This document shows, one piece after another, positions 11,433 through 23,498 of a stretch of DNA of 64,000 bases. The stretch's first letter is position 1. Each line of letters starts with the position of its first letter. The notes under the pieces were generated by a model. That model ran no database searches and was not told where the DNA came from. It was given only the letters and a program-made list of their open reading frames with translations. Origin of the DNA: Fuscovulum blasticum DSM 2131 (lineage in GTDB: Bacteria; Pseudomonadota; Alphaproteobacteria; Rhodobacterales; Rhodobacteraceae); the NCBI RefSeq assembly GCF_003034965.1, contig NZ_PZKE01000002.1:124001-188000 (forward strand), in the 5' to 3' direction. A program made the position numbers and the translations under genes.

Positions 11433-12824
11433 TTACAGCCAGCCCAGCAAGCGCCACCACAACCAGTCCAGCGGCAGAAGCAGAACAAGCGTCACCGCCG
11501 TAAGCGGCAGGGTCACGCGGACCAGGTGCCCCAGCCTTTCGCCGGACAGTTGCATCGCCAGGATCAGCGGGCCAACCTGATAGGGGAAGACCACCGTCGA
11601 GAACCCGATCACCTGCGTCATCAGCACGGTCTGCAACGACAGGCCCGTGGTTTGCGCCATATCCTGCGCCATGGGCGTCAGCACGGCCGGCACACCCGGA
11701 ATGGTGGTCACCAACCCGGTCACCGCCGACAGCAGCGAAAGCGACAGGAAGTTGACGAAGCTCTGCCCGGCCTCAAGCGGCAGCACGGACAGCACCGCGC
11801 CGCCCACAGCTGCCCCGATGCCCGAGGCATTGACCAGCGCCCCCAGACCAAGCGCGGCCGCGACGAAGACGATCATGCCGAAATCGACGGCGGCGTTGAA
11901 CTCCTTGGCCGGAACCGCACCGATGCCGGGCAGCAGCAACAAAACGGCAGAGGCGATGCCGATCCAGGCCGGGTTCACGCCGTGCCAGGCGTCGGTCATC
12001 CACAAAAGCAGCGTCAGCCCCAGGATGACTGCAACCCGGGCTTCCGCCGCCGTGCCGGGCACCGCGTCCGGCGGGTTGGTTGGCGCCACGGCCGTTTCAC
12101 GGGCACGGTCAGGGAACAGCCAGATCACCAGCAGCACGGCCACCGCCGATTTTGCAACGCCCAGCAAGGGGTAATGCAGCGCCAGATAGGACATGTAGGA
12201 AAACCCGACGCCATATTGCGTCTCGGCCGCGCCGGCTAGGATCATGTTCGGGATATTCGACGGCAGGATCGCGAAACTTGGCATGTTGCAGGCCAGCGCC
12301 AGTGCAACGGCCAGCCCTGCCCGCCCCTTCGTGCCGGCAACCAGCCCCAGATGGTCGGCCAAGGCCATGCCCACCGGCACCAGCACCACCGCGCGCCCGA
12401 CCGATGACGGCATCACGAAGCCAAGCGCCATGGCGGTAATGGTCATCACCGTTACAAGGCGTGCGTAACTGCCGGCAGCCAGCGGCGCCAGCGCCGCTGC
12501 AAGACGCGCGACCAAGCCCGTTCGACGGATCGCCGCCCCGATCACGAACCCCGAAACGATCAGCCAGACCGCCGCCGAACCGAAACCCGCAAAGATCAGG
12601 TCCGGCCTCGCAAGACCGGGGATCAGCACCGCGGCAAAGAAGATCAACCCGGTCACAAAGGGCGGCAATGCCCCGGTGGCCCAAAGGACAAGTGTCAGCA
12701 GAACCACACCGGCGCTGGCGCCCATCGGTTGCGGGAGTGGCCCAACGGCCAGCCACAGCGCCAGCAGCGCGGCAGCGGATAGGACGGTTGTGCGAAGGAT
12801 GTTGGCGAGCATCGGGGGACTCAT
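11433..12824 (-). CDS. SLC13/DASS-family anion permease
   Basis: A 463-residue, highly hydrophobic transporter with about twelve membrane segments. Repeated motifs resembling the DASS signature are present: MPSSVGRAVVLVPVGMALA in the first half and TTIPGVPAVLTPMAQDMA in the second, together with FAILPSNIPNMILAG. The family moves dicarboxylates, citrate or sulfate with sodium. The start is uncertain: ATG at 12824 or 12812, neither with a strong ribosome site. It diverges from the AraC regulator at 12922 with about 100 bases between, so that protein may control it. Substrate unknown. Confidence 0.82.
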   Translation of the reverse strand: MSPPMLANILRTTVLSAAALLALWLAVGPLPQPMGASAGVVLLTLVLWATGALPPFVTGLIFFAAVLIPGLARPDLIFAGFGSAAVWLIVSGFVIGAAIRRTGLVARLAAALAPLAAGSYARLVTVMTITAMALGFVMPSSVGRAVVLVPVGMALADHLGLVAGTKGRAGLAVALALACNMPSFAILPSNIPNMILAGAAETQYGVGFSYMSYLALHYPLLGVAKSAVAVLLVIWLFPDRARETAVAPTNPPDAVPGTAAEARVAVILGLTLLLWMTDAWHGVNPAWIGIASAVLLLLPGIGAVPAKEFNAAVDFGMIVFVAAALGLGALVNASGIGAAVGGAVLSVLPLEAGQSFVNFLSLSLLSAVTGLVTTIPGVPAVLTPMAQDMAQTTGLSLQTVLMTQVIGFSTVVFPYQVGPLILAMQLSGERLGHLVRVTLPLTAVTLVLLLPLDWLWWRLLGWL

Positions 12825-12921
12825 GTCTGGTAAACGAAGCGCTGTTGCAGGGCGCACCGCATCTTGCGGCCAGCGCACCCCGACATTAGGTGCCGGATGG
12901 CAGATGCGGAAGATCGACAGG

Positions 12922-13824
12922 ATGACAACATATATCGCCAATCCGCCAATCCCATTTCCAGACGCCGGCCTCGATGCGCTGCGCCTGTCGCCGGCCGGGC
13001 CGGCCTATGTGCTTGATCCGTCGCGCCCCGTTCTGGTTCATTCCCGCGCCCTTGCCGCCGGATCGGTCATCACCCGCCACGCCCATCCGCGCGCGCAGCT
13101 TCTGCAGGCGGTGCAGGGGTTGTTGCGGATCAAGACAGGCGGTGCGATCTGGCTGGTGCCGCCGGGGTTCGGGGTCTGGATTCCGGGCGGTGCAGTGCAT
13201 GAGGTCACCATCGAGACCGCCGCGCGCACCGCGAATATCTATGTCGATCCCAGCATCACCGTCCGACCCGGGCAGACCTGCGAAGTGGTGCCGGTCTCCC
13301 CGCTTCTGCGCCTGCTGATCCAGCGAATGCTGGACGAAACCCACCCTGACCGGCTGAACCGGCTGGGGGCGGTGGCCTGCGATGAAATCTCGGCGGCTGA
13401 ACCCGCGCCGCTGAACCTGCCTGTCGGGCAGGACGCGCGGCTGCGGCGCGTCACGACCAGCCTTGCGCGCAACCCGGGTGACCCGCGTCCCCTGCCCGCG
13501 CTTGCCGCGGAAGCGGCGACCAGCCCCCGCACATTGGAACGGCTGTTTCGCGCCGAAACCGGCCTTGGCTTTCGCGACTGGCGGTCCCGGGCGCGGCTGC
13601 TTCAGGCCGTTGCGCAGCTGGAACGGGGCGAAACCTCGACCCGGATCGCCTATGGCCTTGGCTACCGCAGCGTCAGCGCCTTCGTCGCGGCTTTCCGCCA
13701 GCAGTTCGGCTGCGCCCCGCAGGCCTATCTTGACCGCCCGAACCGAACTGATCCGAACACAGATGCGGGAAAGATGGCACAGGCAGATCTGGCGGAAGCG
13801 GTGACTTCCTCCGCCACTTCCTAG
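12922..13824 (+). CDS. AraC-family regulator with its 3' end altered by the island
   Basis: A 300-residue regulator with an N-terminal cupin sensor (about residues 35-110; HAHPRAQLLQAVQG) and a C-terminal double HTH (TSPRTLERLFRAETGLGFRDW and IAYGLGYRSVSAFVAAFRQQ). It diverges from the SLC13 permease and may regulate it. Start taken at ATG 12922; ATG 12904 in the same frame is possible. The left attachment repeat begins at 13790, within codon 290, so the last 11 residues and the stop codon come from the repeat and the island. Joining the AraC sequence directly to the tRNA-side sequence would give a different tail that also stays open for several codons. The HTH is intact, so the protein is probably still functional. 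Confidence 0.88.
   Translation: MTTYIANPPIPFPDAGLDALRLSPAGPAYVLDPSRPVLVHSRALAAGSVITRHAHPRAQLLQAVQGLLRIKTGGAIWLVPPGFGVWIPGGAVHEVTIETAARTANIYVDPSITVRPGQTCEVVPVSPLLRLLIQRMLDETHPDRLNRLGAVACDEISAAEPAPLNLPVGQDARLRRVTTSLARNPGDPRPLPALAAEAATSPRTLERLFRAETGLGFRDWRSRARLLQAVAQLERGETSTRIAYGLGYRSVSAFVAAFRQQFGCAPQAYLDRPNRTDPNTDAGKMAQADLAEAVTSSATS
13790..13803 (+). repeat. attL, 14-bp direct repeat of the tRNA-Ser 3' end
   Basis: TGGCGGAAGCGGTG, identical to 23409-23422 where it forms the 3' acceptor end of tRNA-Ser(UGA) read on the minus strand. It marks the left edge of the island, 161 bases before the integrase. Confidence 0.8.
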
Positions 13825-13889
13825 ACGTTCCGTAACAGTACTTTTTCCCTTATTTTATTAGGATTTATGCCCTTGCAATGTTCCGCAGT

Positions 13890-13904
13890 GTTCCGCTATT
13901 GTTC
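13890..13904 (+). promoter_or_regulatory. LexA-type SOS box before the integrase
   Basis: GTTC-CGCTATT-GTTC fits the GTTC-N7-GTTC box known for Rhodobacter LexA. A further GTTC lies ten bases upstream at 13880. It sits 60 bases before the integrase start, which suggests DNA-damage induction of excision. Confidence 0.55.
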
Positions 13905-13964
13905 ACGTCAATCCCGCGCCGAGTGGGGGAAGGCATGGCGGAATGAAAGGTTGGGATCCCTGTT

Positions 13965-15143
13965 TTGCGAAAGCCGGAAAAAACGCTGAATGCCCGCATG
14001 GTGCAGACCGTCACGGAACCGGGCAAGTACTTTGACGGCCACGGGCTTTACCTTCGGGTGGACAAGACCGGCGGCAAGTTCTGGGTGCAGCGTATCGTCA
14101 TCAACGGAAAGCGGCGCGAGTTGGGGCTTGGCAGCTTCGACTTCGTGACGCTGGCCGATGCTCGCCTTGCCGCCTTCGGCAATCGCAAGCTGGCGCGCGA
14201 GGGCGGCGATCCCCTTGCCGCTCGAAGGCAGGAGAAGACAATCCTGAATTTCGAGGAAGCCGCCCGTGAGGTTCACCGAATCCACATGCCGACATGGAAG
14301 AACCCCAAGCACGGCGAACAGTTCATCAACACGCTGACGACCTATGCCTTCCCCACTTTGGGAACGAAGCGGGTGTCTGATGTGACGACAAGCGATGTGC
14401 TGACGGCGCTGCAACCGATCTGGCTCACCAAAGCCGAAACCGCACGGCGGGTGAAGCAGAGGATCAGCACTGTCATGAAGTGGACCATCGCCAAGGGGTG
14501 GCGGCGCGACAATCCCGTTGATGCGGTGGACAAGGGGCTTCCCCGGCAGACTGACAAGGTAGAGCATCGCAAGTCCCTGCCCTACGATCAGGTTGCCACA
14601 TGCCTGCGCACGATGGCCGCTTCTCAGGCCGGGCTTTCAACGAAGCTCTGTCTTGAGTTTCTTGTGTTGACCTGTGTCAGGTCAAATGAGGCACGGGAAG
14701 CGCGATGGTCGGAAATCGACCTCAAGGCCAAGGTATGGGACATCCCCGCAGAACGGATAAAGATGGACCGGCCGCACCGCATTCCCCTTTCTGATCGTGC
14801 GCTGGCGGTGTTGAGGCGGGCCGAAGGGCTGGATGAAATTCTGGTGTTCCCCGGCGCAATCAAGGGCAAGCCGCTGTCAGATGCCACGCTGTTGAAGCTG
14901 ATCCGCGAGAACGGCTTTGAGGTGGACATTCACGGCTTTCGGACGAGCTTCCGCACATTGGCACAGGAAAGAACGAACTTCCCGCGAGAGGTTGCAGAAG
15001 CGGCGCTGGCACACCTGTCAGGGGATGCTGTGGAGCGGGCCTATGCCCGGTCTGATCTGTTCGAGAAACGGCGGAAGATGATGGGCGCCTGGGCGGCGTT
15101 TCTGGCCGAGAAGCCGGCCAAGGTTGTGGGGAGGATTGGGTGA
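13965..15143 (+). CDS. int: Tyrosine integrase (DUF4102/P4-type)
   Basis: A 392-residue site-specific recombinase. An N-terminal arm-binding domain (FDGHGLYLRVDKTGGKFWVQ) is followed by a core-binding region and the catalytic domain. The catalytic residues are visible: Arg in TCVRSNEAREARWSEI, the HGFR box in DIHGFRTSFRTLAQ, the second His in ALAHLSGDAVERAYARSD and the nucleophilic Tyr in AYARSD. The only start that keeps MRKPEKT is TTG at 13965, since an in-frame stop lies at 13944; ATG at 13998 is the alternative. It is transcribed away from attL and overlaps the next gene. It should catalyse integration into and excision from the tRNA-Ser gene. Confidence 0.93.
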   Translation: MRKPEKTLNARMVQTVTEPGKYFDGHGLYLRVDKTGGKFWVQRIVINGKRRELGLGSFDFVTLADARLAAFGNRKLAREGGDPLAARRQEKTILNFEEAAREVHRIHMPTWKNPKHGEQFINTLTTYAFPTLGTKRVSDVTTSDVLTALQPIWLTKAETARRVKQRISTVMKWTIAKGWRRDNPVDAVDKGLPRQTDKVEHRKSLPYDQVATCLRTMAASQAGLSTKLCLEFLVLTCVRSNEAREARWSEIDLKAKVWDIPAERIKMDRPHRIPLSDRALAVLRRAEGLDEILVFPGAIKGKPLSDATLLKLIRENGFEVDIHGFRTSFRTLAQERTNFPREVAEAALAHLSGDAVERAYARSDLFEKRRKMMGAWAAFLAEKPAKVVGRIG

Positions 15144-15757
15144 TGCCAAAGGAGGAAATCATCGGAAATGGTATCACCGAACGGAAGCGCATTACCTATG
15201 ATATGACTGGAAAGACCCCTGGTGACCAGCGCGCGGCAATGCAGACGCTCCGTGCAATGGGGGATGCTATCAAAGAAATGGGAATTTGGCCGGCTAGCAG
15301 CTTGGTCGCGCGGGCGGTGTGTAGTGAAATTATAGGTGGCAAGTCCGAAGATAGCTCTGAGATCGACTCCCCAGAGCAGTTTGCTCAGGAAATCACAATT
15401 CTCTTGGATATTGTAGACAAGGCGGTTCAGGAGGGGGATGCAGCATTAGCGGCTAAATTTGCTTTCAAGGCAGGGGATTTGTGGAGAACGGCGCTGATGA
15501 AATGGCAGTGGGAGCCTAGTGCTCTTAGTGGGCAGAAATATCAGAGAGCGTCGGAGGTCGGCGCGGCAGCTCGCCGTGGGTCCGTCGCAGATCATACACC
15601 ACGTGTATTGTCAGAAATGAACCGCCTGATTACTGAGAGCGGGTTGACAGCCACCGCGGCGGCGAGGACGGCAGCAAAGAATGGTATCGGGACAAGTCTC
15701 GGTGCCAACCGTGCAATTTGGCAGCGCCACAAGAAGAAACATGTGACAAACCCCTGA
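15143..15757 (+). CDS. Island protein of unknown function
   Basis: A 204-residue protein I do not recognise. It begins by ATG overlap with the integrase stop (TGATG) behind GAGGATTGGG, so it is translated from the integrase message. The middle is acidic and helical (FAQEITILLDIVDKAVQEGD AALAAKFAFKAGDLW region); the end is basic and Ala-rich (TATAAARTAAKNGIGTSLGA, then RHKKKH), which suggests a C-terminal nucleic-acid-binding tail, possibly HTH-like. Base composition is lower in GC than the flanking core genes. A partner of the integrase or a regulator of it are possibilities only. Confidence 0.6.
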   Translation: MPKEEIIGNGITERKRITYDMTGKTPGDQRAAMQTLRAMGDAIKEMGIWPASSLVARAVCSEIIGGKSEDSSEIDSPEQFAQEITILLDIVDKAVQEGDAALAAKFAFKAGDLWRTALMKWQWEPSALSGQKYQRASEVGAAARRGSVADHTPRVLSEMNRLITESGLTATAAARTAAKNGIGTSLGANRAIWQRHKKKHVTNP

Positions 15758-15824
15758 TCTGTCACAGAAGGATGCCGCTACCCTCCATCACGAACCGTAA
15801 CGGCCAGTGATGAAAGGATGCAAA

Positions 15825-16007
15825 ATGTCACGGAAAATCGCCCGCCTTACCCGGCTCGAAGAGATGACGGGCCTCAAGAAGACGAAGCTTTACGATCTGA
15901 TGAACAGTGGGGATTTTCCCCGCAAGGTTAAGCTTACCGGCAAAGCGGTGGGCTGGTTCGAAGACGAAGTGGAGGCATGGCTGGCCTCGCGGCAAGTCGC
16001 TGCGTGA
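15825..16007 (+). CDS. alpA: AlpA-family excisionase/regulator
   Basis: A 60-residue MerR-like winged-helix protein: MSRKIARLTRLEEMTGLKKT followed by KLYDLMNSGDFPRKVKLTGK and GWFEDEVEAWLASR. This is the AlpA fold, used by P4-like and satellite elements as activator of integrase transcription or as excisionase. Start at 15825 with AAAGGA seven bases upstream; upstream GTG/ATG codons in frame are less well placed. It lies about 70 bases after the previous gene and just before a run of coupled genes. Confidence 0.88.
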   Translation: MSRKIARLTRLEEMTGLKKTKLYDLMNSGDFPRKVKLTGKAVGWFEDEVEAWLASRQVAA

Positions 16008-16016
16008 GGTGGGCAC

Positions 16017-16304
16017 ATGGCACCCCGCCCCCTCTTCGCCCCTGAGCGGACAGCAGAAGAATGCCTGTGGCTTTGGCCGACAGTCCTGATCCGGTCTGGC
16101 GAAACAGGCCAGGATCAGGACTTTGCAGACCGGATCATGCAGCAAGCGCAGCGCCCCGGCTGGGAGCCATCGCCGCTGCAACTGGACCTGATGCGCAGGA
16201 TGGTGAAGCACTACTGCCCCGATGGCATCCGGCTTGATCCTGATCTGATCGCAGGAGCATCAACCGGATGGAGTGATGTAGTGATTAAGGGGGCCGGCCA
16301 ATGA
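16017..16304 (+). CDS. Small island protein, unknown
   Basis: A 95-residue protein not recognised. It starts ten bases after the alpA stop (GTGAGGTGGGCAC before the ATG) and its stop overlaps the next start by four bases (ATGA), so it belongs to the alpA-rep operon. The middle (PSPLQLDLMRRMVKHYCPDG) is amphipathic; no motif is visible. Confidence 0.6.
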   Translation: MAPRPLFAPERTAEECLWLWPTVLIRSGETGQDQDFADRIMQQAQRPGWEPSPLQLDLMRRMVKHYCPDGIRLDPDLIAGASTGWSDVVIKGAGQ

Positions 16305-16531
16305 CCCGGCCCCTGACACGGCAGCAGCGATGGCGTCAGAACAATCCCCGGCGCTACCTTGCGCACCTCTATGTGCAGGCCGGCAAGCGCCTCGGCTTCA
16401 TCACACCACAGCCTTGCGAGGTATGTGGGGGCGAAAAGGCAGAGGCGCACCACCCTGACTATGACCGACCCGGCGATGTGCAATGGCTGTGCCGCCGTCA
16501 CCATCGCCAGCATCACGCGCGGGGAGTCTGA
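16301..16531 (+). CDS. HNH-like zinc-binding phage protein
   Basis: A 76-residue basic protein. CEVCGGEKAEAHHPDYDRPG and WLCRRHHRQHH give the Cys2...His2-like metal site and an HH pair typical of short phage HNH or HNH-like zinc proteins (HHPDYDRP is a common phage signature). Catalytic competence is uncertain because the protein is short. HNH proteins near phage terminase genes often help packaging; here the gene sits before the replication gene. ATGA overlap with the preceding gene. Confidence 0.7.
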   Translation: MTRPLTRQQRWRQNNPRRYLAHLYVQAGKRLGFITPQPCEVCGGEKAEAHHPDYDRPGDVQWLCRRHHRQHHARGV

Positions 16532-16533
16532 TC

Positions 16534-16815
16534 GTGGTCTATACACTCAGCCAGAGAAACCGCCTCCATGCCGTCTATATGGAAATGGTCGGCAAGTTGC
16601 GGGCAAGTCTCACTGGTAACGTTACCAGTGAGGCCAGCATAAGGGCGCCGGTCACATGTGATCAGATCACAAGTGAGGCGCGGACCTATGCCGCCCGCCG
16701 TTCACTGTCATCTAATGACAATGAACACACCACGGTGGTGCAATCGCGCCCAGATCATCTTGGGAATTCCCGAGATAGCGCCATTCCGATTCCCATTGTT
16801 GGGAAGGCATCATGA
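16534..16815 (+). CDS. Small ORF filled with hairpin-forming dyads
   Basis: A possible 93-residue protein starting at GTG 16534 behind CGGGGAG and ending in an ATGA overlap with the replication gene. The first 30 residues (MVYTLSQRNRLHAVYMEMVG) look protein-like; the rest is disordered and matches nothing I know. The same DNA from 16609 to 16805 holds six inverted repeats with 3-4 base loops, so selection here appears to act on nucleic-acid structure. It may be a real short protein with an origin or regulatory RNA embedded in it, or merely an open frame across a structured region. Confidence 0.45.
   Translation: MVYTLSQRNRLHAVYMEMVGKLRASLTGNVTSEASIRAPVTCDQITSEARTYAARRSLSSNDNEHTTVVQSRPDHLGNSRDSAIPIPIVGKAS
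16609..16805 (+). other. Array of six hairpin-forming inverted repeats
   Basis: In order: 16609-16632, CTCACTGGTAAC followed at once by its exact complement; 16652-16676, a 25-bp dyad around TGTGATC-A-GATCACA with one mismatched pair; 16706-16720, TGTCAT-CTA-ATGACA; 16728-16740, CACCAC-G-GTGGTG; 16759-16774, CTTGGG-AATT-CCCGAG (perfect if a G-U pair is allowed); 16790-16805, TTCCCA-TTGT-TGGGAA. All sequences differ, so a single DNA-binding protein does not explain them; the common feature is a folded stem with a tight loop. They precede the iteron-bearing replication gene. Confidence 0.75.
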
Positions 16816-17420
16816 GCCGAAAGCGCAAGGCGGCAAAAGTCCTCTCAGGGCGGTTCACGGCTATGCCACACTACATTCTCGACTGCCCAGCCTATAAGGC
16901 ACTGCCACCACTCGCCCGGTGCATCTACTGGCACCTGCACCGCCTTGCCGGGGTAGCGGGCGAGAAGAATGGCGAGGTGTTCTATTCGGTGCGGAACGCT
17001 GCTGAAGATCATGGGGTTGGTAAGGATAGGGCCAACCGTGCCTTCGATGACTTGCAGGCAAAGGGATTCATATTGCCTGAACGCATCGGGCACCTTGGCA
17101 TTGAGGGGCAAGGCAAGGCCACAACGTGGCGTCTAACGCATTTCCGCGCTGACAGGGATTTCCTAAAATGGTCAGATGGTCGCGACTTCCCCGTCGCCAA
17201 GAAACAGAAGCCTGTCCTCACCACACGGACGGCCCTGTCCTCAAAACAGGGACAGTCAGTCAACACACGGGACAGGATCGCCCGCCCCTGTCCTCAAAAC
17301 AAGGACGTTTCAGGCGCTTTCGATGCCTCGCCTGTCCTCACCACCGGGACATATAAAGATATACCATCTGGCAGGGCCTCGCCTGTGGTGCGCTTGGTCA
17401 CGGGTGGGCGTGGTGACTGA
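16812..17420 (+). CDS. Winged-helix replication initiator-like protein with iterons in its gene
   Basis: A 202-residue protein. Residues 15-110 form a winged-helix-like domain (YKALPPLARCIYWHLHRLAG; EDHGVGKDRANRAFDDLQAK; GFILPERIGHLG), similar in layout to phage replication organisers and DnaT/O-type proteins. The C-terminal third is low complexity (TALSSKQGQSVNTRDRIA), because its DNA carries 20-bp iterons read in three different frames. This is the arrangement of lambda O, whose gene contains the origin. It starts by ATGA overlap with the previous gene. Replication function is inferred; a plain HTH regulator is the alternative. Confidence 0.65.
   Translation: MSRKRKAAKVLSGRFTAMPHYILDCPAYKALPPLARCIYWHLHRLAGVAGEKNGEVFYSVRNAAEDHGVGKDRANRAFDDLQAKGFILPERIGHLGIEGQGKATTWRLTHFRADRDFLKWSDGRDFPVAKKQKPVLTTRTALSSKQGQSVNTRDRIARPCPQNKDVSGAFDASPVLTTGTYKDIPSGRASPVVRLVTGGRGD
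17211..17350 (+). repeat. 20-bp iterons, candidate replication origin
   Basis: Four copies of CCTGTCCTCA-N2-AC-N2-GGAC at 17211-17230, 17234-17253, 17287-17306 and 17331-17350, plus a degenerate fifth at 17254-17273 that abuts copy 2. The copies fall in different reading frames of the surrounding gene (PVLTT, ALSSK, PCPQN, PVLTT), so the conserved unit is DNA, not peptide. Confidence 0.75.
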
Positions 17421-17669
17421 CCCCCGCATGACATGTGCCCCTGCACCAAGGCAGCACAAAGATAGCGTTTCGGATCAAGCGGCAAATTTGCCGCTTGGGA
17501 TGCCTCGGCACCACAGGCGCGCGATAACCTGGGTATCTGCGCACGGAACGCAGATAGATCGGCACCGCATCGACCGACATGTCACCGGGGGTGGTTCCGA
17601 ACTTCGGACCTCTATCGGGGACTGGCGCGGGGACTGTCGCGCAAGACACGAGCAAATTGGAGTTTTCGC
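17421..17669. other. Structured non-coding gap in the island
   Basis: No credible ORF. It contains a 22-bp perfect palindrome at 17476-17497 (CAAGCGGCAAA and its complement), an 8-bp stem with 7-base loop at 17534-17556 (TATCTGCG/CGCAGATA) and a repeated GGGGACTG near 17626-17640. It could be part of the origin, an operator region for the downstream HTH/portal genes, or a packaging site. Confidence 0.55.
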
Positions 17670-17891
17670 ATGACGATGCCGACCAGGCCGCCGCTTGATC
17701 CTTGGCGCCTTGACGAGGTGCTTGAACCTGACCGAATGCTCTGGGGGCTACCAGCCATTGCAAGGGCTGCCGGGGTGAGTGAGGACACCGCGCGTCGCTG
17801 GCATCGGCACACAGACGCGCCGATCACGAAGCCGGGTGGCCGGTATTTTGCGCAACGGCGGGCGCTTCTGGCATGGCTCCGTGCAAGGTAA
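17670..17891 (+). CDS. Small HTH DNA-binding protein
   Basis: A 73-residue protein with a MerR/Nu1-like helix-turn-helix: LWGLPAIARAAGVSEDTARR followed by WHRH and a wing GGRYFAQRRALLAWLRAR. Proteins of this size and fold act as phage small-terminase DNA-binding domains or as local regulators. Start ATG 17670 with TTGGAG upstream. It lies immediately before the portal gene, the usual place of terminase genes, but no large terminase follows. Both roles remain open. Confidence 0.65.
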   Translation: MTMPTRPPLDPWRLDEVLEPDRMLWGLPAIARAAGVSEDTARRWHRHTDAPITKPGGRYFAQRRALLAWLRAR

Positions 17892-17953
17892 ACCTATGTT
17901 TTGCAAGGTTTTGCTATCTGACGGCGTGACCCGGAAGCCGACACAATGGGCCA

Positions 17954-19165
17954 ATGATCAGATGGCCCTTCACCCGCAAGGCTTCGCAGCCTGAACAGAA
18001 ATCGCTCACCACGGCTGGTTCGTGGGTGGAGTTGATTACGGGCACCGCGCCGACAAGCTCCGGTATCTATGTCACCGCCGCCGATGCGCTCAAGGTTCCC
18101 GCCGTTTCCAACGCGGTGCAGATCATCAGCGAAGCGGTCGCAACCCTCGACATTCAGCTTAAGCGGATTGAGGGCGGCACAGAAGCTGACGATGAGGGCC
18201 ACCGCCTTCTGCCGCTGTTGCGGGACGAGGTGAACGGCTGGACAAGCGCCTTCGAGTTCTTCCGCCAGATCGTTTTCGATGCCCTTACTTCGGATGCGGG
18301 CGGCTTGGCCTGGGTAAACCGCGTGAACGAGCGGGTGGCTGAAATCATCAGGTACCAGCCGGGCGTGTTGTCCTTTGATGTTGACCAGACCACGGGGGAA
18401 CGGCGCTACAGGATCAACGCGCGCCCTGTGCCGGCGTCAGACGTGATCCACCTTCTTCCGCCGCTGGGCGTGGCCCCGCTCACCCTTGCCCGCGAAGCCA
18501 TCGGGGTTGCGGTGGACCTTGAGCGTCACGCTGCCCGGCTGTTCTCCCGTGGTGCCCGCCCAGTTGGTGCCCTGAAATTTCCGAAGGGTCTTAGCGAAGA
18601 CGCCGTGAAGAAGATCGCTGCGGTTTGGCGGGCAACCCATGAGGGCGAAAACGCCACCGGAAGAACGGCGATCTTGGCAGACGGTGCCGAGTTCCAACCG
18701 TTCACGTTCAACAGCACCGACGCGCAATTCCTCGAAAACCGGCGTTTCCAGATCCTCGAAATCGCCCGCGCCTTCAACATTCCGGCGCCGATGATTGGCG
18801 ATCTGGAACGCGCAACCTGGTCGAACAGCGAACAGAAGGGCCGTGAGTTCCTGTCTTACACGCTTGAACCATGGCTTCGGGCACTGGAAGGCGCGCTGCG
18901 ACGGGCGCTTTTTAGCGACGACGAGCGGCCTAGCTATTTAATTCGCTTCGACCGCGACGACCTGACCCGCGCCGATCTCGCAACCCGTGCGACCGTCATA
19001 AACAGCCTGATCGCATCCAAGACCATCAACCCCAACGAAGGGCGTGGCTGGCTTGGCATGCCGCCCCGCGACGGCGGCGACAGCTTCGAGAATCCGAACA
19101 TCACGAGCGGCGCGGCGCCTTCTGCCGAGCCGCCTGCAAACGAGGTGCCCCGTGAACCTGTCTGA
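17954..19165 (+). CDS. HK97-family phage portal protein
   Basis: A 403-residue portal. Typical blocks are AVSNAVQIISEAVATLDIQL, GYxP-like VHLLPPLG region preceded by SDVIHLL, GLTLAREAIG-type APLTLAREAIGVAVDLERHA and the late ARAFNIPAPMIGDLERATWS-NSEQKGREF signature, all found in HK97-type and gene-transfer-agent portals. Portals form the dodecameric DNA-entry ring of the procapsid. Length is normal and the frame is intact. It is the only full-length structural gene I see in the element, and no terminase precedes it or capsid follows it. Confidence 0.9.
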   Translation: MIRWPFTRKASQPEQKSLTTAGSWVELITGTAPTSSGIYVTAADALKVPAVSNAVQIISEAVATLDIQLKRIEGGTEADDEGHRLLPLLRDEVNGWTSAFEFFRQIVFDALTSDAGGLAWVNRVNERVAEIIRYQPGVLSFDVDQTTGERRYRINARPVPASDVIHLLPPLGVAPLTLAREAIGVAVDLERHAARLFSRGARPVGALKFPKGLSEDAVKKIAAVWRATHEGENATGRTAILADGAEFQPFTFNSTDAQFLENRRFQILEIARAFNIPAPMIGDLERATWSNSEQKGREFLSYTLEPWLRALEGALRRALFSDDERPSYLIRFDRDDLTRADLATRATVINSLIASKTINPNEGRGWLGMPPRDGGDSFENPNITSGAAPSAEPPANEVPREPV

Positions 19166-19544
19166 GGTTTCCAACATCGCTGAGGATCAGGATCGGGGCC
19201 GCTGGCTCGATCTTCTTAGCCCCTATGACGGCAAGCCGGTGGGTATCCGGCTTCTGATCGCCGGTCCGGATTCAATGGTGCAGGCGCGCGCGCGCCTGAA
19301 GCTGGCAGACGAACTTGCCGACATGGCGGATGATGAGGGCCGGGTTTCCGCCGAAAATCGCGAGACTGCCCGGCTGCGCAACCTTGCCCGCTGTGTGCTG
19401 GCATGGGACGCGACCGAAGACGGCAAGGCCGTGCCTTTCAGCTTCGAGGGGGCGCTTCGACTGCTTCGGGCTGGCCGCTGGGTTCAGGAACAGGTTGACG
19501 ACTTCGCCGGTTCGCGTCGCGCCTTTGCCAAGGGGGCAGCGTGA
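19152..19544 (+). CDS. Unknown protein between portal and protease
   Basis: A 130-residue protein starting at GTG 19152 inside the portal 3' end and ending in a TGATG overlap with the protease, so the three are coupled. It is acidic and helical (ARLKLADELADMADDEGRVS; EGALRLLRAGRWVQEQVDDF). No family recognised. Its position suggests a head-assembly or packaging accessory role, but nothing in the sequence proves that. Confidence 0.65.
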   Translation: MNLSEVSNIAEDQDRGRWLDLLSPYDGKPVGIRLLIAGPDSMVQARARLKLADELADMADDEGRVSAENRETARLRNLARCVLAWDATEDGKAVPFSFEGALRLLRAGRWVQEQVDDFAGSRRAFAKGAA

Positions 19545-20002
19545 TGGACCGGATTGAGTTCAAGGCTCAGCTTTCCGTTGACGATGCGGGCGCGATCACC
19601 GGCATTGCCTGGCCCTTCTTTGGGCCGGATCGGGTTGGCGACGTGATCGAACGCGGCGCGTTCAAGGCCCTGCCGCCCCTGCCCATGCTGGACACGCACG
19701 ACCAGGCGAAGGCCGTGGGTGTTTGGGAAGAGATCACCGAAACCACCGAAGGCTTGGCCGTGAAAGGCCGGCTTCTGGTGGAAGACGTGGAGCGCGCCCG
19801 CGAGGTCCGGGCGCTGATCAAGGCGGGTGCCATGCGTGGCCTGCCCCTTGAACCGCACCACGTTGAGACGATCCGCCGAATGGATCAGGTCTGGTTGTCG
19901 GCCACGCTGGCAGACACCACGACAACGCGGGGTGAAAAGGTGCTGCCGCGCGTGTCACGGCATGCCATCACACCGCAACTCATTGATGCGATGTTCCCAT
20001 GA
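19544..20002 (+). CDS. HK97-type prohead protease, apparently degenerate
   Basis: A 152-residue protein whose first 100 residues match prohead proteases: WPFFGPDRVGDVIERGAFKA, MLDTHDQAKAVGVWEEI with the catalytic His, then GLAVKGRLLVEDVERAREVR and ALIKAGAMRGL. At the place where the family has GLSIGY with the nucleophilic Ser, this protein reads GLPLEPHH, and the following strand pattern is also lost (the family's LWEVSLVTFP block is missing). It is probably inactive as a protease, or its second half has been replaced. It is coupled to its neighbours by TGATG and ATGA overlaps. No major capsid gene follows it. Confidence 0.75.
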   Translation: MDRIEFKAQLSVDDAGAITGIAWPFFGPDRVGDVIERGAFKALPPLPMLDTHDQAKAVGVWEEITETTEGLAVKGRLLVEDVERAREVRALIKAGAMRGLPLEPHHVETIRRMDQVWLSATLADTTTTRGEKVLPRVSRHAITPQLIDAMFP

Positions 20003-20514
20003 AGGTGCATCGCGATATTTTGGCGAACCTGGCAGAGCGGCGACGGCTGGAACGGCGCGAGCGGGACGCGCGGCGCGGCCGGCTTGGTCGCGGTCGCTTT
20101 GATCAGCTTGTGAGGGAACTTGCGGGCGTCATTCGGCTTGCTTTCGAGGCCGGGGCAACAGGATCTCTGTTCGGGCTTGAGGGGCCGCTGCGGCATGGCA
20201 TCCGGGCCGATCTGTGCTTGCAGGGCTGGCACTGGCACGACGCCGACCAGATGGCCCGTGAGTTGATGGACGAGGCATTCAAGGCGGTTCGCGCGACCCG
20301 CCCAAGCTGGAACGAGGGGCAAAGAGAATGGACAGTAGAGGCCGGAACGCTGATCGAACGGACCCGCTGCGCTCATTGCGGGAAGCCATTGCCCGAGGGG
20401 CATCACAAGTTCTGCAGAACAACTTGCGCAAACGTGTATCACAGCCGACTGAGCCGCTTGAAGGATGGCGCGGAAACGGCGGTGGTGCGGATAGCGGTTC
20501 GAGTGATGACGTAG
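19999..20514 (+). CDS. Zinc-ribbon protein, N-terminal part
   Basis: A 171-residue basic protein with an Arg-rich N-terminus (RRRLERRERDARRGRLGRGR) and one C-terminal ribbon CAHCGKPLPEGHHKFCRTTC (C-x2-C-x11-C-x3-C). Three more ribbons of the same class follow at once in the next ORF, one frame back, which suggests that a -1 frameshift split one longer protein. It starts by ATGA overlap with the protease gene. Function unknown; multi-ribbon proteins usually bind nucleic acid. Confidence 0.65.
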   Translation: MKVHRDILANLAERRRLERRERDARRGRLGRGRFDQLVRELAGVIRLAFEAGATGSLFGLEGPLRHGIRADLCLQGWHWHDADQMARELMDEAFKAVRATRPSWNEGQREWTVEAGTLIERTRCAHCGKPLPEGHHKFCRTTCANVYHSRLSRLKDGAETAVVRIAVRVMT

Positions 20515-20954
20515 CCGCCGAGTGCGAGTGGTGCGGTGGCCCGATCCTTGAGCGGGGGCGTCTAAAGTTCTGCGGCGAGAAATGTGCGAAGGCAGGCGCG
20601 GCGATAGTGCGGCGGGCGTCACTTGAACGGCGCTACACAAGGCAACGGGAAGGCCGCATCTGCGCCTGGTGCGGGAAGCCACTGAAACCGGCCACGCGAG
20701 GACATGCGAAATATTGCTGCATCGAATGTACGCAAAAGGGGTATTACGCTGGTCGCAAGGCGACAAACAGGAGAACCTGTGTCCAGTGCGGCTCAGAGTT
20801 CACGACCGCAAGCCGGACAGCGAAGCATTGCGGCCGATCATGTGTGGCCAAAAGCAGGTTGGCGGAGACTGCCAAGAGGCGCATCAGGGGGCGGTGGCGC
20901 GCTCACCTCACCCCGGCCCTGTTCGACAGGGCGTTTATCAGGCTGGACGGGTAG
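20328..20954 (+). CDS. Triple zinc-ribbon ORF, real start uncertain
   Basis: The frame is open from 20328, but its first 60 residues overlap the well-supported ribbon of the previous gene in another frame, so true coding probably begins near 20510. It contains CEWCGGPILERGRLKFCGEK, CAWCGKPLKPATRGHAKYCC and CVQCGSEFTTASRTAKHCGR, three ribbons alike in spacing and in the K-[FYH]-C motif, then a basic tail. The absence of a well-placed start and the matching ribbon upstream favour a frameshifted continuation of 19999-20514. Confidence 0.55.
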   Translation: MDSRGRNADRTDPLRSLREAIARGASQVLQNNLRKRVSQPTEPLEGWRGNGGGADSGSSDDVAAECEWCGGPILERGRLKFCGEKCAKAGAAIVRRASLERRYTRQREGRICAWCGKPLKPATRGHAKYCCIECTQKGYYAGRKATNRRTCVQCGSEFTTASRTAKHCGRSCVAKSRLAETAKRRIRGRWRAHLTPALFDRAFIRLDG

Positions 20955-20969
20955 CAGGGTTGGCGGCGC

Positions 20970-20990
20970 ATCTGCAAACGGTTTGCAGAT
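20970..20990. other. 21-bp palindrome after the zinc-ribbon gene
   Basis: ATCTGCAAAC, one G, then the exact complement GTTTGCAGAT. With only a one-base spacer it looks more like a protein-binding dyad than a terminator. A second dyad TCACTGCG-N6-CGCAGTGA follows at 21021-21042. Confidence 0.5.
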
Positions 20991-21086
20991 AGTGCAGGCC
21001 AGGCGGGTGAAGCGCGGGTGTCACTGCGTTTTCGCGCAGTGAGGATCAGCCGGGGCGACCCGACTACCTAATACCTGGAAAACATA

Positions 21087-21112
21087 GAAGCCCCGCACTT
21101 CTGCGGGGCTTC
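21087..21112 (+). terminator. Terminator hairpin closing the island's rightward operon
   Basis: GAAGCCCCGCA pairs with TGCGGGGCTTC over a four-base loop. It lies between the rightward zinc-ribbon genes and the leftward gene ending at 21138, so it may act in both directions. Confidence 0.65.
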
Positions 21113-21137
21113 AGGGGTCGCGTAATGCTCAGCAATA

Positions 21138-21323
21138 CTAAGCACACTTTGCCAGCGCTCTGGTGCTTTCGTCTTGGGTGTACTGCCTATCTTCAGGCAC
21201 AGCAGCGACAACCGTTTGCACCTGACGGTCGCTCATCCACCGCGCAGCGTGCGCGGCATGGCGCTCAGCAGCATTCACCATCAGCTCAATTTGCTGATCG
21301 CGAGTCAGGGGTGGCATCGTCAT
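21138..21323 (-). CDS. Small unknown protein in island cargo
   Basis: A 61-residue hydrophilic protein, MTMPPLTRDQQIELMVNAAE..., start at 21323 behind AGGAGA. It follows the 167-residue gene by 49 bases on the same strand and is probably cotranscribed. No motif is recognised. The codon use and composition are less GC-rich than core genes. Confidence 0.55.
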   Translation of the reverse strand: MTMPPLTRDQQIELMVNAAERHAAHAARWMSDRQVQTVVAAVPEDRQYTQDESTRALAKCA

Positions 21324-21372
21324 GTACGTTCTCCTGATACGGCCTGCATAGGCCATAACCTTTACCTAAGCG

Positions 21373-21876
21373 TTAAGGGGCAGAATTTCTACGCTTAAGC
21401 ATCCACATGTTACTACCATGGTATGGGTCTGTCCTCGAGCCATGATATCCTGCGGTCCTTAATGCCTTGCATATGTGCCCATACTTCGTCAACGCCTTGT
21501 CAGGCAGGTATGCGACTGCTGTAACAAACACGATTGCTGAGGGACGTACCTGCTCAGCAAGTTCAACGGCCGCTGTGCAAACACAATCCAGCACAGCCTT
21601 CCTCGCGTCGCCGGTCAGAAAGCTCTTTGTCTGCGCTCCATCCAAGATCATCTGCGGCTCGCCAACACTTTGTAATGACTCAACTATTCCAAACGTGAAT
21701 TCCATAACACCAGGCTGAAGGTGTGGCTGAGACATCAAAGAAGCCAAGACACTGTAGACAGCCCCACGCTCCTTGTCTGATCCAATAAAAAGTCGCGCTA
21801 AGTGCTCTCTATCATTAGATAAAATATCAAACCGAAGTGGCTTCCCAGAAGCAATGTCGGCGAGAACGAAAGCCAT
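21373..21876 (-). CDS. Unknown low-GC cargo protein
   Basis: A 167-residue protein I do not recognise. It appears alpha/beta: KPLRFDILSNDREHLARLFI, PQMILDGAQTKSFLTGDARK, PSAIVFVTAVAYLPDKALTK and a C-terminal GSNMWMLKRR. Its DNA is clearly more AT-rich than the rest of the island, and it is read against the packaging genes together with one small ORF. In phage satellites this position commonly carries host-benefit or anti-phage cargo; that is context only. Confidence 0.6.
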   Translation of the reverse strand: MAFVLADIASGKPLRFDILSNDREHLARLFIGSDKERGAVYSVLASLMSQPHLQPGVMEFTFGIVESLQSVGEPQMILDGAQTKSFLTGDARKAVLDCVCTAAVELAEQVRPSAIVFVTAVAYLPDKALTKYGHICKALRTAGYHGSRTDPYHGSNMWMLKRRNSAP

Positions 21877-21923
21877 AAGCAGTTTCCAGTTGTAAGTTGG
21901 CCCAAAAAATAGCCATCAAGCCG

Positions 21924-22133
21924 CTACCTGTCCATAGCGCTGTTCCTGATTCTCCCCTCTTCGATCAGTCCTCGGATGAACTCTGGCCGCGTCGGCTCCG
22001 GATCGAGCTTCGCCCGTTCCTGATCAACCCACGCCAGAAGGTCGGGTTGCAAGCGGACCATCACTGGTGTGCCCTGTCCGGTAGCCGGTCGGCCACCACG
22101 GTTTTTGGTATCATTTTCTTGTTGAGTGCTCAT
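21924..22133 (-). CDS. Ribbon-helix-helix regulator
   Basis: A 69-residue CopG/Arc-like protein: RGGRPATGQGTPVMVRLQPD then LLAWVDQERAKLDPEPTRPE and FIRGLIEEG, i.e. beta strand, two helices and the usual basic lead. It diverges from the small-gene operon at 22227, and an exact inverted repeat overlaps its start codon, so it probably represses itself and perhaps that operon. No obvious toxin partner is adjacent. Start at 22133 chosen because the longer frame to 22436 is antisense to other genes. Confidence 0.75.
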   Translation of the reverse strand: MSTQQENDTKNRGGRPATGQGTPVMVRLQPDLLAWVDQERAKLDPEPTRPEFIRGLIEEGRIRNSAMDR

Positions 22134-22152
22134 GTGGTTTATGATACCACAT
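22132..22152. promoter_or_regulatory. Candidate operator of the RHH regulator
   Basis: ATGTGGT and its complement ACCACAT flank seven bases (TTATGAT), overlapping the start codon of the RHH gene. A second GGTATCAT/ATGATACC pair spans 22117-22149. Confidence 0.5.
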
Positions 22153-22226
22153 CGGACAGGCCGAGCAAGAAGGTGAGAGCTCTCGCCCGGCCCTAACCGA
22201 AACCCTGATCTATGGAGGATCAGTGA

Positions 22227-22457
22227 ATGGCTATACATTGCCATAACACTCCCCGCTTGCCTGATCAAATCCGCCGCCCTGTCCTGCCGGCAGAGACGTG
22301 GAACGAGTTGCACGACTTCCTCTCGCTGGCGCTGGATGCCCTGGGCGAGAGACCGCAGGACTTCACCCCCGACTTTCTGCACAACGCGGTGCTGCACCAG
22401 CGGCTCGCGATCAAGATCACCCACAAGGCCATGCAACAGATCGGGGGGGCGGCATGA
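22227..22457 (+). CDS. Small island protein, unknown
   Basis: A 76-residue protein, first of five rightward genes that overlap by four bases each. It shows an amphipathic helix WNELHDFLSLALDALGERPQ and ends AIKITHKAMQQIGGAA. Start ATG 22227 follows GGAGGATCAGTGA. No family recognised. Confidence 0.6.
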   Translation: MAIHCHNTPRLPDQIRRPVLPAETWNELHDFLSLALDALGERPQDFTPDFLHNAVLHQRLAIKITHKAMQQIGGAA

Positions 22458-22591
22458 TCTTTTACATCGTCCGTATCGCGGTGCGCCTGCACCTCAACCT
22501 GAACTGGATCTTCGATCCGGTGACCTCATGGAAACGGCGCGAACCTCTACTGAGACGCTATACGCCCCGGCGGAAAGGGGGTGCGGCATGA
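22454..22591 (+). CDS. Very short basic ORF in the coupled small-gene operon
   Basis: A 45-residue ORF starting by ATGA overlap with the previous stop and ending with the same overlap to the next gene. The N-terminus is hydrophobic (MIFYIVRIAVRLHLNLNWIF) and the C-terminus Arg-rich, like a small membrane-anchored peptide. It is supported mainly by the overlap pattern. Confidence 0.45.
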   Translation: MIFYIVRIAVRLHLNLNWIFDPVTSWKRREPLLRRYTPRRKGGAA

Positions 22592-22836
22592 TCCCGAGCA
22601 AGTACCGCGAAGCGCACCAAGACGCTGGCTATGCCCTCGGCAAGGCGCAGGGTTACATGACCGCCCTCTACACTCTAGTGATGCTCGGCAAAGCGGTGGA
22701 TCACAGCCACCCCGACGGCAACGCTATCGCCACTCTTTGCAACGCAATCGAGGGTGAGCTTGAAGCAATGGGCAAGAAGCTGGACGAAGCATGGAACGCG
22801 GTCAGCGAAGCCACTGATCAGGAGAAGGCAGCATGA
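22588..22836 (+). CDS. Small island protein, unknown
   Basis: An 82-residue helical protein (YGxxALGKAQGYMTALYTLVML region; EGELEAMGKKLDEAWNAVSE). It overlaps both neighbours by four bases. No family recognised. Confidence 0.55.
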   Translation: MIPSKYREAHQDAGYALGKAQGYMTALYTLVMLGKAVDHSHPDGNAIATLCNAIEGELEAMGKKLDEAWNAVSEATDQEKAA

Positions 22837-23033
22837 GCGCGCTTCTGAACCACATTCAGGCGCAGCAAGACACCGCCTGCAAGCTCGCAAACGTGCTTCA
22901 TGCCGCCTCCCTTCTTGACGACGTGCAGATCGCACCAGACGCCGTATCTCGCCTGATTGGCGAGGCGCTGACCTTGGCGCGCAACATCAGCATCAATCTC
23001 GACTGTGTATCGCTTCCGGAGGGCGCAGCATGA
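22833..23033 (+). CDS. Small island protein, unknown
   Basis: A 66-residue helical protein (CKLANVLHAASLLDDVQIAP; LIGEALTLARNISINLDCVS), behind GAGAAGGCAGC and overlapping its neighbours by four bases. It shares a general style with the 82-residue product before it, perhaps as a partner subunit, but no family is recognised. Confidence 0.55.
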   Translation: MSALLNHIQAQQDTACKLANVLHAASLLDDVQIAPDAVSRLIGEALTLARNISINLDCVSLPEGAA

Positions 23034-23263
23034 GCGACGACAAATTCAAGTTCACCGAACTGCACCTTGGCACCCCGCACGACAACATTGCGGCCGCAAT
23101 CAGCATCATTCAGACCCAGATTATGGCAACGTACTCTGACGTGGACAGCCAAACAATGTTCGGCCTTTTCCATTGCAAAACGGATCATCTACTGGCTGCT
23201 GTTTCTCTGTTGGTGCCGCTACTTGGGCCGGTCGAGGCGCTCCGCTGGGAAGGCCGCGGCTAG
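23030..23263 (+). CDS. Small island protein, last gene of the coupled operon
   Basis: A 77-residue protein (KFKFTELHLGTPHDNIAAAI; HLLAAVSLLVPLLGPVEALR) starting by overlap with the preceding stop. A GC hairpin follows at 23276. Function unknown. Confidence 0.55.
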   Translation: MSDDKFKFTELHLGTPHDNIAAAISIIQTQIMATYSDVDSQTMFGLFHCKTDHLLAAVSLLVPLLGPVEALRWEGRG

Positions 23264-23275
23264 GACATCGCCTTC

Positions 23276-23297
23276 GCCCCCGGCTACGGTCGGGGGC
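23276..23297 (+). terminator. Hairpin after the small-gene operon
   Basis: GCCCCCG and CGGGGGC pair across eight bases, 12 bases after the last stop. No T run follows. Confidence 0.45.
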
Positions 23298-23334
23298 TAT
23301 GTTCCGCAGACAGCCGCGCCGTTCCGGCGTTGAT

Positions 23335-23357
23335 TGGGGGAAGCAATGGCGGAATGA
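23335..23357 (+). repeat. Right inner repeat of the island
   Basis: A 23-bp stretch (TGGGGGAAGCAATGGCGGAA plus TGA) matching 13924-13946 at 21 positions; an ATGTTCCGCAG 11-mer precedes each copy (13878 and 23299). The pair lies just inside both ends and may be integrase arm sites. Confidence 0.6.
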
Positions 23358-23408
23358 TCTGATCTTCTCGAAAATAACCCAACAATAACAATGCGTTACA
23401 ATGAGAAT

Positions 23409-23498
23409 TGGCGGAAGCGGTGGGATTCGAACCCACGGTGGAGTTCCCCCCACGCTAGTTTTCAAGACTAGAGCCTTAAACCACTCGGCCACACTTCC
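23409..23498 (-). tRNA. tRNA-Ser (UGA), island attachment site
   Basis: A 90-base class II tRNA with encoded CCA: acceptor GGAAGTG/CGCTTCC, anticodon arm CTAGTCTTGAAAACTAG with UGA in the loop, a long variable arm, and the T arm GTGGGTTCGAATCCCAC. The gene is intact; its last 14 bases are repeated at 13790 as attL. Confidence 0.97.

Follow-up and report, generated by a model that had tools for sequence, protein, structure and literature searches.

The lone portal gene of a 9.6-kb tRNA-Ser element in Fuscovulum blasticum very likely marks an internal-deletion derivative of a capsid-encoding, satellite-like family

Satellites that encode their own heads have been described as capsid-forming phage-inducible chromosomal islands (cfPICIs), which, according to the available parts of two reports, are said to take their tails from a helper (PMC10690885, PMC11389934). 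The accessible text of the second also outlines a model of reductive evolution, in which defective prophages or "proto-hitchers" keep integration functions and miss structural genes. Here we analysed a 64,000-nucleotide stretch of Fuscovulum blasticum DSM 2131 (contig NZ_PZKE01000002.1, positions 124,001 to 188,000; hereafter the window) and a 9.6-kb element within it (13790-23422), integrated between 14-bp repeats matching a tRNA-Ser 3' end. The element carries a complete HK97-type portal gene, and no capsid, terminase, connector or lysis gene was recognised within it, in agreement with the initial annotation. We consider it very likely that the element arose by internal deletion from a member of a family of satellite-like elements of ~17-19 kb, which integrate at tRNA genes, encode a capsid and are present in Paracoccus and other alphaproteobacteria. 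The most plausible reading of the lone portal is a remnant, not a new hijacking trick, because the join is still visible in a fused protease/tail-chaperone gene. Hence, the tempting idea of a portal-only hijacker is replaced by a readable deletion scar.

The gene in question (19541-20002) had been annotated as protease-like. A Peptidase_S78 match (5.6e-6) bears this out for residues 18-101, to which it is confined, but the 153-aa product is in fact a chimera of a protease stump and a tail-chaperone end. Residues 1-103 match the N-terminus of the prohead protease of the relatives, which in many of them is a single protease-capsid protein of ~510-530 aa. Residues 101-152 match a separate protein of ~110-130 aa encoded at the far right of the relatives, a tail assembly chaperone (Phage_TAC_18, 3.7e-15 for locus L062). 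At the join the chimera reads ...GAMRGL/PLEPHHV..., whereas the relatives show ...G(L/I)SIGF/Y... to its left and, in many, ...LMRxPLEPHHV... to its right. All 27 relatives carry the Ser of the left motif (26 in SIG[FY], one in SVGF), and we take this residue to be the catalytic nucleophile of S78 proteases. It is absent from the chimera, so that the stump would be functionless as a protease. Moreover, DNA similarity to the two closest same-genus loci ends at window position 19839/19840, which is the join. The two sides may have shared ~5 bp, GCCTG, at the join, judging from the left side of L053 and the right side of L091 as stand-ins for the parent.

For comparison we compiled 30 loci: the window, 21 loci in which capsid, terminase, tape measure and chaperone were all found, and eight others. 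The latter comprise a rearranged locus that has neither the chaperone nor the 130-aa gene (L066), three cut by the end of the record or locus (L004, L051, L069), three with losses (L073, L076, L093) and one with losses and no portal (L081). Counts over these loci are not independent, since L060 and L069 seem to share one location and IMG/VR contributes several near-identical records. The window retains 20% of the protease-capsid gene, compared with at least 90% in all 28 non-window portal loci. In 23 of these 28 at least 95% of TerL is retained, and the remaining five are explained by record-end cuts (L004, L051) or deletions (L073, L076, L093).

The clearest counterpart is L088, from the genus of Paracoccus rhizosphaerae, which shows the window gene order on both sides with the missing block in place. 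AlpA, HNH, rep, a helix-turn-helix (HTH) gene, portal, the 130-aa gene and protease-capsid are followed there by tail tube, connectors, tail terminator, TerS, TerL, tape measure and tail chaperone, and then by two zinc-ribbon genes and a repressor-like gene. No integrase match was found on the L088 contig, where AlpA lies ~0.8 kb from the contig start. In L053 the chaperone is likewise followed by both zinc-ribbon genes (61% and 39% identity), and the element lies between two copies, 17.5 kb apart, of a 50-bp repeat from a tRNA-Trp end. The ends were checked in 13 non-window elements. Eight of them, including the near-identical G205 and G210, lie between tRNA 3'-end repeats and span 17.1-18.9 kb; a tRNA-bounded repeat was not found for the other five (G501, G490, G481, G214, G471). 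In all eight bounded relatives the interval from protease to chaperone is 8.4-9.8 kb, which broadly equals the difference in size between them and the window element. The initial annotation had also suggested looking for relatives at the same tRNA-Ser site. One is G435, of the genus Paracoccus, which sits at tRNA-Ser(tga) with a 14-bp core and carries the full late block. G449 occupies tRNA-Ser(gct), and both it and G435 are bounded by a 14-bp core of the tRNA-Ser 3' end and have integrases ~56% identical to that of the window (56% for G435).

Taken together, collinear flanks and a junction uniting two genes that are separate in the relatives identify a deletion derivative, and the loss of the Ser motif, the order in L088, the sizes of the tRNA-bounded elements, G435 at the same tRNA-Ser(tga) and the stop of similarity at the join all support this. 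The join links protease codon 101 to the last 52 codons of the chaperone gene and corresponds to an interval of ~8-9 kb, probably removed in a single event. In the relatives, this interval holds the remainder of the protease, Ser motif included, the capsid, tail tube, connectors, both terminase subunits and the tape measure. The att (attachment) sites, integrase, AlpA, Rep, portal, 130-aa gene and zinc-ribbon genes are still in the order of the relatives. Such an element could probably still excise and replicate. It would make a portal with no procapsid of its own and could not package itself; any transfer would need capsid, terminase, tail and lysis functions from an intact sibling or a phage.

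Several points weigh against this interpretation. The immediate parent was not found, and the portals of the closest relatives differ from that of the window by ~26-28% of amino acids; the deletion ends therefore come from homology and not from a pair of alleles. The deletion may have taken more than one step. Just four of the 21 intact loci have the zinc-ribbon genes after the chaperone, and the arms are mosaic, with a primase or AAA helicase in L053, L062 and L091 where the window has a small Rep. The underlying assembly is a draft. Finally, a recently selected function and mere recency are indistinguishable for the portal, because it and the protease stump are both undecayed.

This last point bears on the possibility, raised in the initial annotation, that the element replaces the portal of a helper phage to redirect packaging. 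Its lone portal would then enter the helper's procapsid and divert packaging to the element's own DNA. In favour of this, the portal is complete and undecayed, and the element has an integrase, AlpA and att sites. We assessed decay by a leave-one-out count of changes at columns that are invariant in the other members (26 for the portal). The window departs at 0 of 83 such columns in the portal, 0 of 19 in the 130-aa gene and 0 of 20 in the protease stump. In L076, which carries a stop, departures number 8 of 91, 5 of 24 and 4 of 24, respectively. The count tracks distance as well as decay, since the L066 portal also departs at 8 of 91 columns, although this distant locus has a capsid and a terminase. 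The chaperone end, with two invariant columns (0 of 2 departures), offers too few for use. Because the presumably dead stump is as undecayed as the portal, the deletion looks recent and there is no sign of selection on a lone portal; we dropped portal-specific selection, as the comparison speaks to recency only. The portal would thus have been kept owing to a recent deletion and not for any demonstrated job of its own. Moreover, the gene adjoining the portal and 130-aa block is a fusion scar, and the window layout occurs in none of the 28 other portal loci tabulated. A degenerate junction pattern, covering one form of the junction, gave 0 matches in viral_contigs. The genome also offers no partner of the family's own type: neither its capsid nor its TerL was found elsewhere in it, nor was any helper-capable sibling. 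We therefore regard portal replacement as very improbable.

The genome has a single PF05065 capsid match, on contig C6, where it neighbours the second portal gene of the genome; no PF03354 terminase was found in the genome, and its two PF03237 terminases are both outside the element (one on C6, one on C2 ~20 kb left of the window). Portal and capsid of HK97 type thus lie together on C6, much as in a Rhodobacter-type gene transfer agent, and this region is likely a putative one; its portal differs from that of the window, with 29% identity over 176 aa. On the same contig as the window, ~12-33 kb to its left (L105/L106), genes named by eye outline a Mu-like prophage region with a PF03237 terminase of its own and a MuB-like ATPase. 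We found no reason to regard this prophage as a helper.

What the parent was depends on the intact relatives. We searched PHROGs with 20 of the 23 called genes of L062 and seven genes of L053, and Pfam with 10 genes each of L062 and L091. Among these we recognised integrase, excisionase- or AlpA-like regulators, primase or AAA helicase, HNH, and head, packaging and partial tail genes (with a distal tail protein in L062). Families for lysis, tail hub or receptor binding had no match among the scanned genes, several of which match nothing; an unrecognised lysis gene is possible because small unmatched open reading frames (ORFs) remain. Such frames could hide the lysis genes expected in an ordinary cryptic prophage, left over from a siphovirus that was once full-length and self-sufficient, and the head, terminase, tail tube, tape measure and, in some, distal tail protein are indeed phage-type. 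We nevertheless judge this explanation improbable. The eight tRNA-repeat-bounded relatives measure 17.1-18.9 kb only, the lysis, hub and receptor-binding families were not among the matches of the scanned genes, and 1312 portal matches in 50,697 phage records all fell below 60% identity, the best among the matches listed being ~33%.

Judged by gene content, the intact relatives do not look like full-length prophages, and "satellite" fits the parent better than "prophage" because they are ~17-19 kb, capsid-encoding and satellite-like. The initial annotation had offered a decayed prophage as its second possibility; an in-frame deletion join does mark a decayed element, but its parent looks satellite-like. 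It had also named, as a sign of simple deletion, full-length prophages holding the missing head genes in the same order. The relatives do hold these genes in that order, as simple deletion predicts, yet they do not look like full-length prophages.

Compared with cfPICIs, as far as the available parts of PMC10690885 and PMC11389934 describe them, the intact relatives share a tRNA-site integrase, an AlpA- or excisionase-like regulator, a primase or Rep, a size of 17-19 kb, the lack of recognised lysis genes, and portal, protease, capsid, connectors, HNH, TerS and TerL together (seen in L062 and across the loci). Unlike cfPICIs, they add a major tail protein (tail tube), tail terminator, tape measure, tail chaperone and sometimes a distal tail protein. 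They are possibly a type of satellite with its own tail tube. The window element has an integrase, an AlpA-type regulator and a replication gene at an att site and differs from cfPICIs in having lost its own major capsid protein, the protease Ser motif and both terminase subunits. The Streptomyces satellites MulchRoom and MiniFlayer, as described in the accessible text of PMC10690885, also encode portal, capsid and terminase, but lack key replication genes, and one has a tail fibre; we set them apart by description, not by sequence. With the "proto-hitchers" of PMC11389934, in so far as its available parts present them, the window element shares remaining integration functions and missing structural genes. 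It differs in that the parent itself is small and satellite-like and the join is kept in frame. No report of such ~17-19-kb elements was recognised among the titles and abstract openings listed, and we make no claim of a first report. A survey of Paracoccus prophages, according to the part of it available, retained only regions with lysis modules and would therefore have passed over them (PMC6536676). The present locus points to this group, with head, packaging and partial tail genes and without recognised lysis or receptor-binding genes.

Other members of the family have lost late genes in different ways. L073 is without TerS, TerL and tape measure; L076 has two fusions, of capsid with TerL and of TerL with tape measure, and a stop between them; L081 retains the tape-measure end and the chaperone only; and in L093 tail terminator, a piece of TerL and a zinc-ribbon gene are joined. 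The first three belong to the genus of the window, in which one intact locus (L075) was found, and L093 to the genus Paracoccus. This sample of four is small and partly redundant. The join is in frame in the window, and both joins are in frame in L076, where the stop lies in the terminase part. The first join of L093 is out of frame, yet the upstream frame continues without a stop into the zinc-ribbon gene, and L073 runs into unrelated sequence. We tried and dropped the idea that frame-preserving deletions are a selected pattern, as the cases are too mixed and too few.

These loci could suggest that the window element is one of several deletion derivatives living by trans-mobilisation from intact siblings, much like a defective interfering genome. 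In favour are its integrase, AlpA and att sites, and gene loss yielding dependants of this kind is a model set out in the available parts of PMC11389934. However, the family's capsid and TerL are absent from this genome, L076 with its stop and excess changes is plain decay, and no evidence here supports transfer. We consider this proto-satellite explanation unlikely, though less so than a cryptic prophage. Equally doubtful to us as the latter is a wider scenario, in which the intact relatives are little-described satellites that build their own head, tail tube and tape measure and borrow lysis and receptor-binding functions, and late genes are lost again and again within the family, yielding small trans-mobilised derivatives, the window element among them, whose orphan portal possibly interferes with assembly of the parent. 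The internal deletion itself illustrates, at the level of single bases, how a capsid-encoding element would turn into a dependent one along the proposed reductive route, in a family with several different late-gene losses.

The features of the element are collected in Table 1.

Table 1. Features of the window element, with positions in the window and the basis of each assignment.
Feature	Position	Strand	Basis
attL core, 14-bp copy of tRNA-Ser 3' end	13790..13803		repeat match
35-nt subterminal repeat, copy 1	13912..13946		repeat family D6; 83% identity to copy 2
Tyrosine integrase	13965..15143	+	PF00589, PF13356, PF22022
205-aa ORF	15140..15757	+	no family match
AlpA-type regulator/excisionase	15807..16007	+	PF05930, 8.9e-17
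95-aa ORF	16017..16304	+	homologue in two relatives (40%, 56%)
HNH-like endonuclease	16301..16531	+	phrog_2340, 4e-17
Rep-like initiator	16812..17420	+	HTH_36, 1.2e-5; weak PHROG replication-initiator matches
Four 21-nt iteron-like repeats within rep	17210..17350		repeat family D2
73-aa HTH protein	17670..17891	+	homologue upstream of portal in 28/28 non-window portal loci
HK97-type portal, full length	17954..19165	+	PF04860, 6.6e-82, profile positions 1-321 of 321
130-aa gene between portal and protease	19152..19544	+	phrog_313 (tail assembly chaperone), 2.4e-18
Protease stump, residues 1-101 of the family's prohead protease(-capsid) gene	19541..19843	+	homology
Deletion junction, Ser of G(L/I)SIGF/Y motif lost, Pro here	19839..19846		alignment
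Last 52 residues, C-terminus of tail assembly chaperone fused in frame	19844..20002	+	homology
Zinc-ribbon protein	19999..20514	+	homologue after chaperone gene in 4/21 intact loci (L053, L068, L088, L090)
Second zinc-ribbon protein	20328..20954	+	same four loci (L053, L068, L088, L090)
72-aa ORF	21138..21356	-	weak DUF2564, below cut-off
167-aa ORF	21373..21876	-	no family assigned; no PADLOC match
70-aa repressor-like protein	21924..22136	-	homologue in right arm of several relatives
Four small ORFs	22227..23263	+	homologues of some in arms of relatives
35-nt subterminal repeat, copy 2	23323..23357		repeat family D6
attR core within tRNA-Ser 3' end	23409..23422		repeat match
tRNA-Ser(tga), intact integration target	23409..23498	-	tRNA call

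The integrase, AlpA and HK97 portal of the initial annotation are upheld by Pfam matches, as is its iteron-bearing replication gene by an HTH_36 match and the iteron-like copies. Its statement that tail genes are missing is inexact, because the 130-aa gene matches a tail-chaperone PHROG, and the chaperone end remains as well; most tail genes are gone. A homologue of the 130-aa gene is present in 27 of the 28 non-window portal loci, the exception being L066. Lysis families had no match among the window proteins scanned, several small ORFs matching nothing, and a PADLOC defence scan matched 0 of 10 proteins (seven from the window, three from L091).

The 14-bp repeat, TGGCGGAAGCGGTG, has exactly two matches in the window against a mean of 0.02 expected, and none of 100 shuffles gave two. 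The right copy is the 3' end of the intact tRNA-Ser(tga), so that the direct repeats and target initially annotated are borne out. The 35-nt subterminal repeats are possible arm sites of the integrase. The integrase gene shows 76% DNA identity to the same-genus G220, and the match begins 3 bp before the att core. Among five same-genus stretches fetched, the order of the tRNA-Ser and the next two right-hand host genes is kept in all, and the left flank was matched in none, so no pair of occupied and empty sites is available. An 11-nt att core string was absent from all 14 loci searched; the two other tRNA-Ser insertions, G435 and G449, were found by matching tRNA 3' ends and not by this core-string search. 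A reading frame at 12676-13824, of AraC type as named by eye, runs through attL, and the C-terminus of its product may have been altered by integration because the frame crosses this site.

Among further relatives, intact elements were located at L053:3728-21288 (with its end in the L085 stretch), L062:631-18255, L067:940-18854 and L091 with L107/L108. The right arm of the last, an intact tRNA-Ser element, encodes a possible SLATT-type two-transmembrane protein (L091:18801-19190; 0.0028, below the Pfam cut-off), which is a candidate cargo gene. Same-genus portals in G212, G213 and G220 are 38-41% identical to that of the window. Small plasmid records in PLSDB, from Paracoccus, Roseomonas and Methylorubrum, have portals 37-42% identical to it (NZ_CP157016.1, 17,494 bp; CP099479.1, 16,883 bp; NZ_CP088250.1, 16,127 bp; NC_010721.1, 23,392 bp); distant relatives may exist as free circles. 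Other same-genus islands, L078, L079 and L080, have related integrases (60-82% identity, in pieces in L078 and L080), and the family portal was not found within these three stretches. L079 and L080 carry a tRNA called SeC(tca) by ARAGORN.

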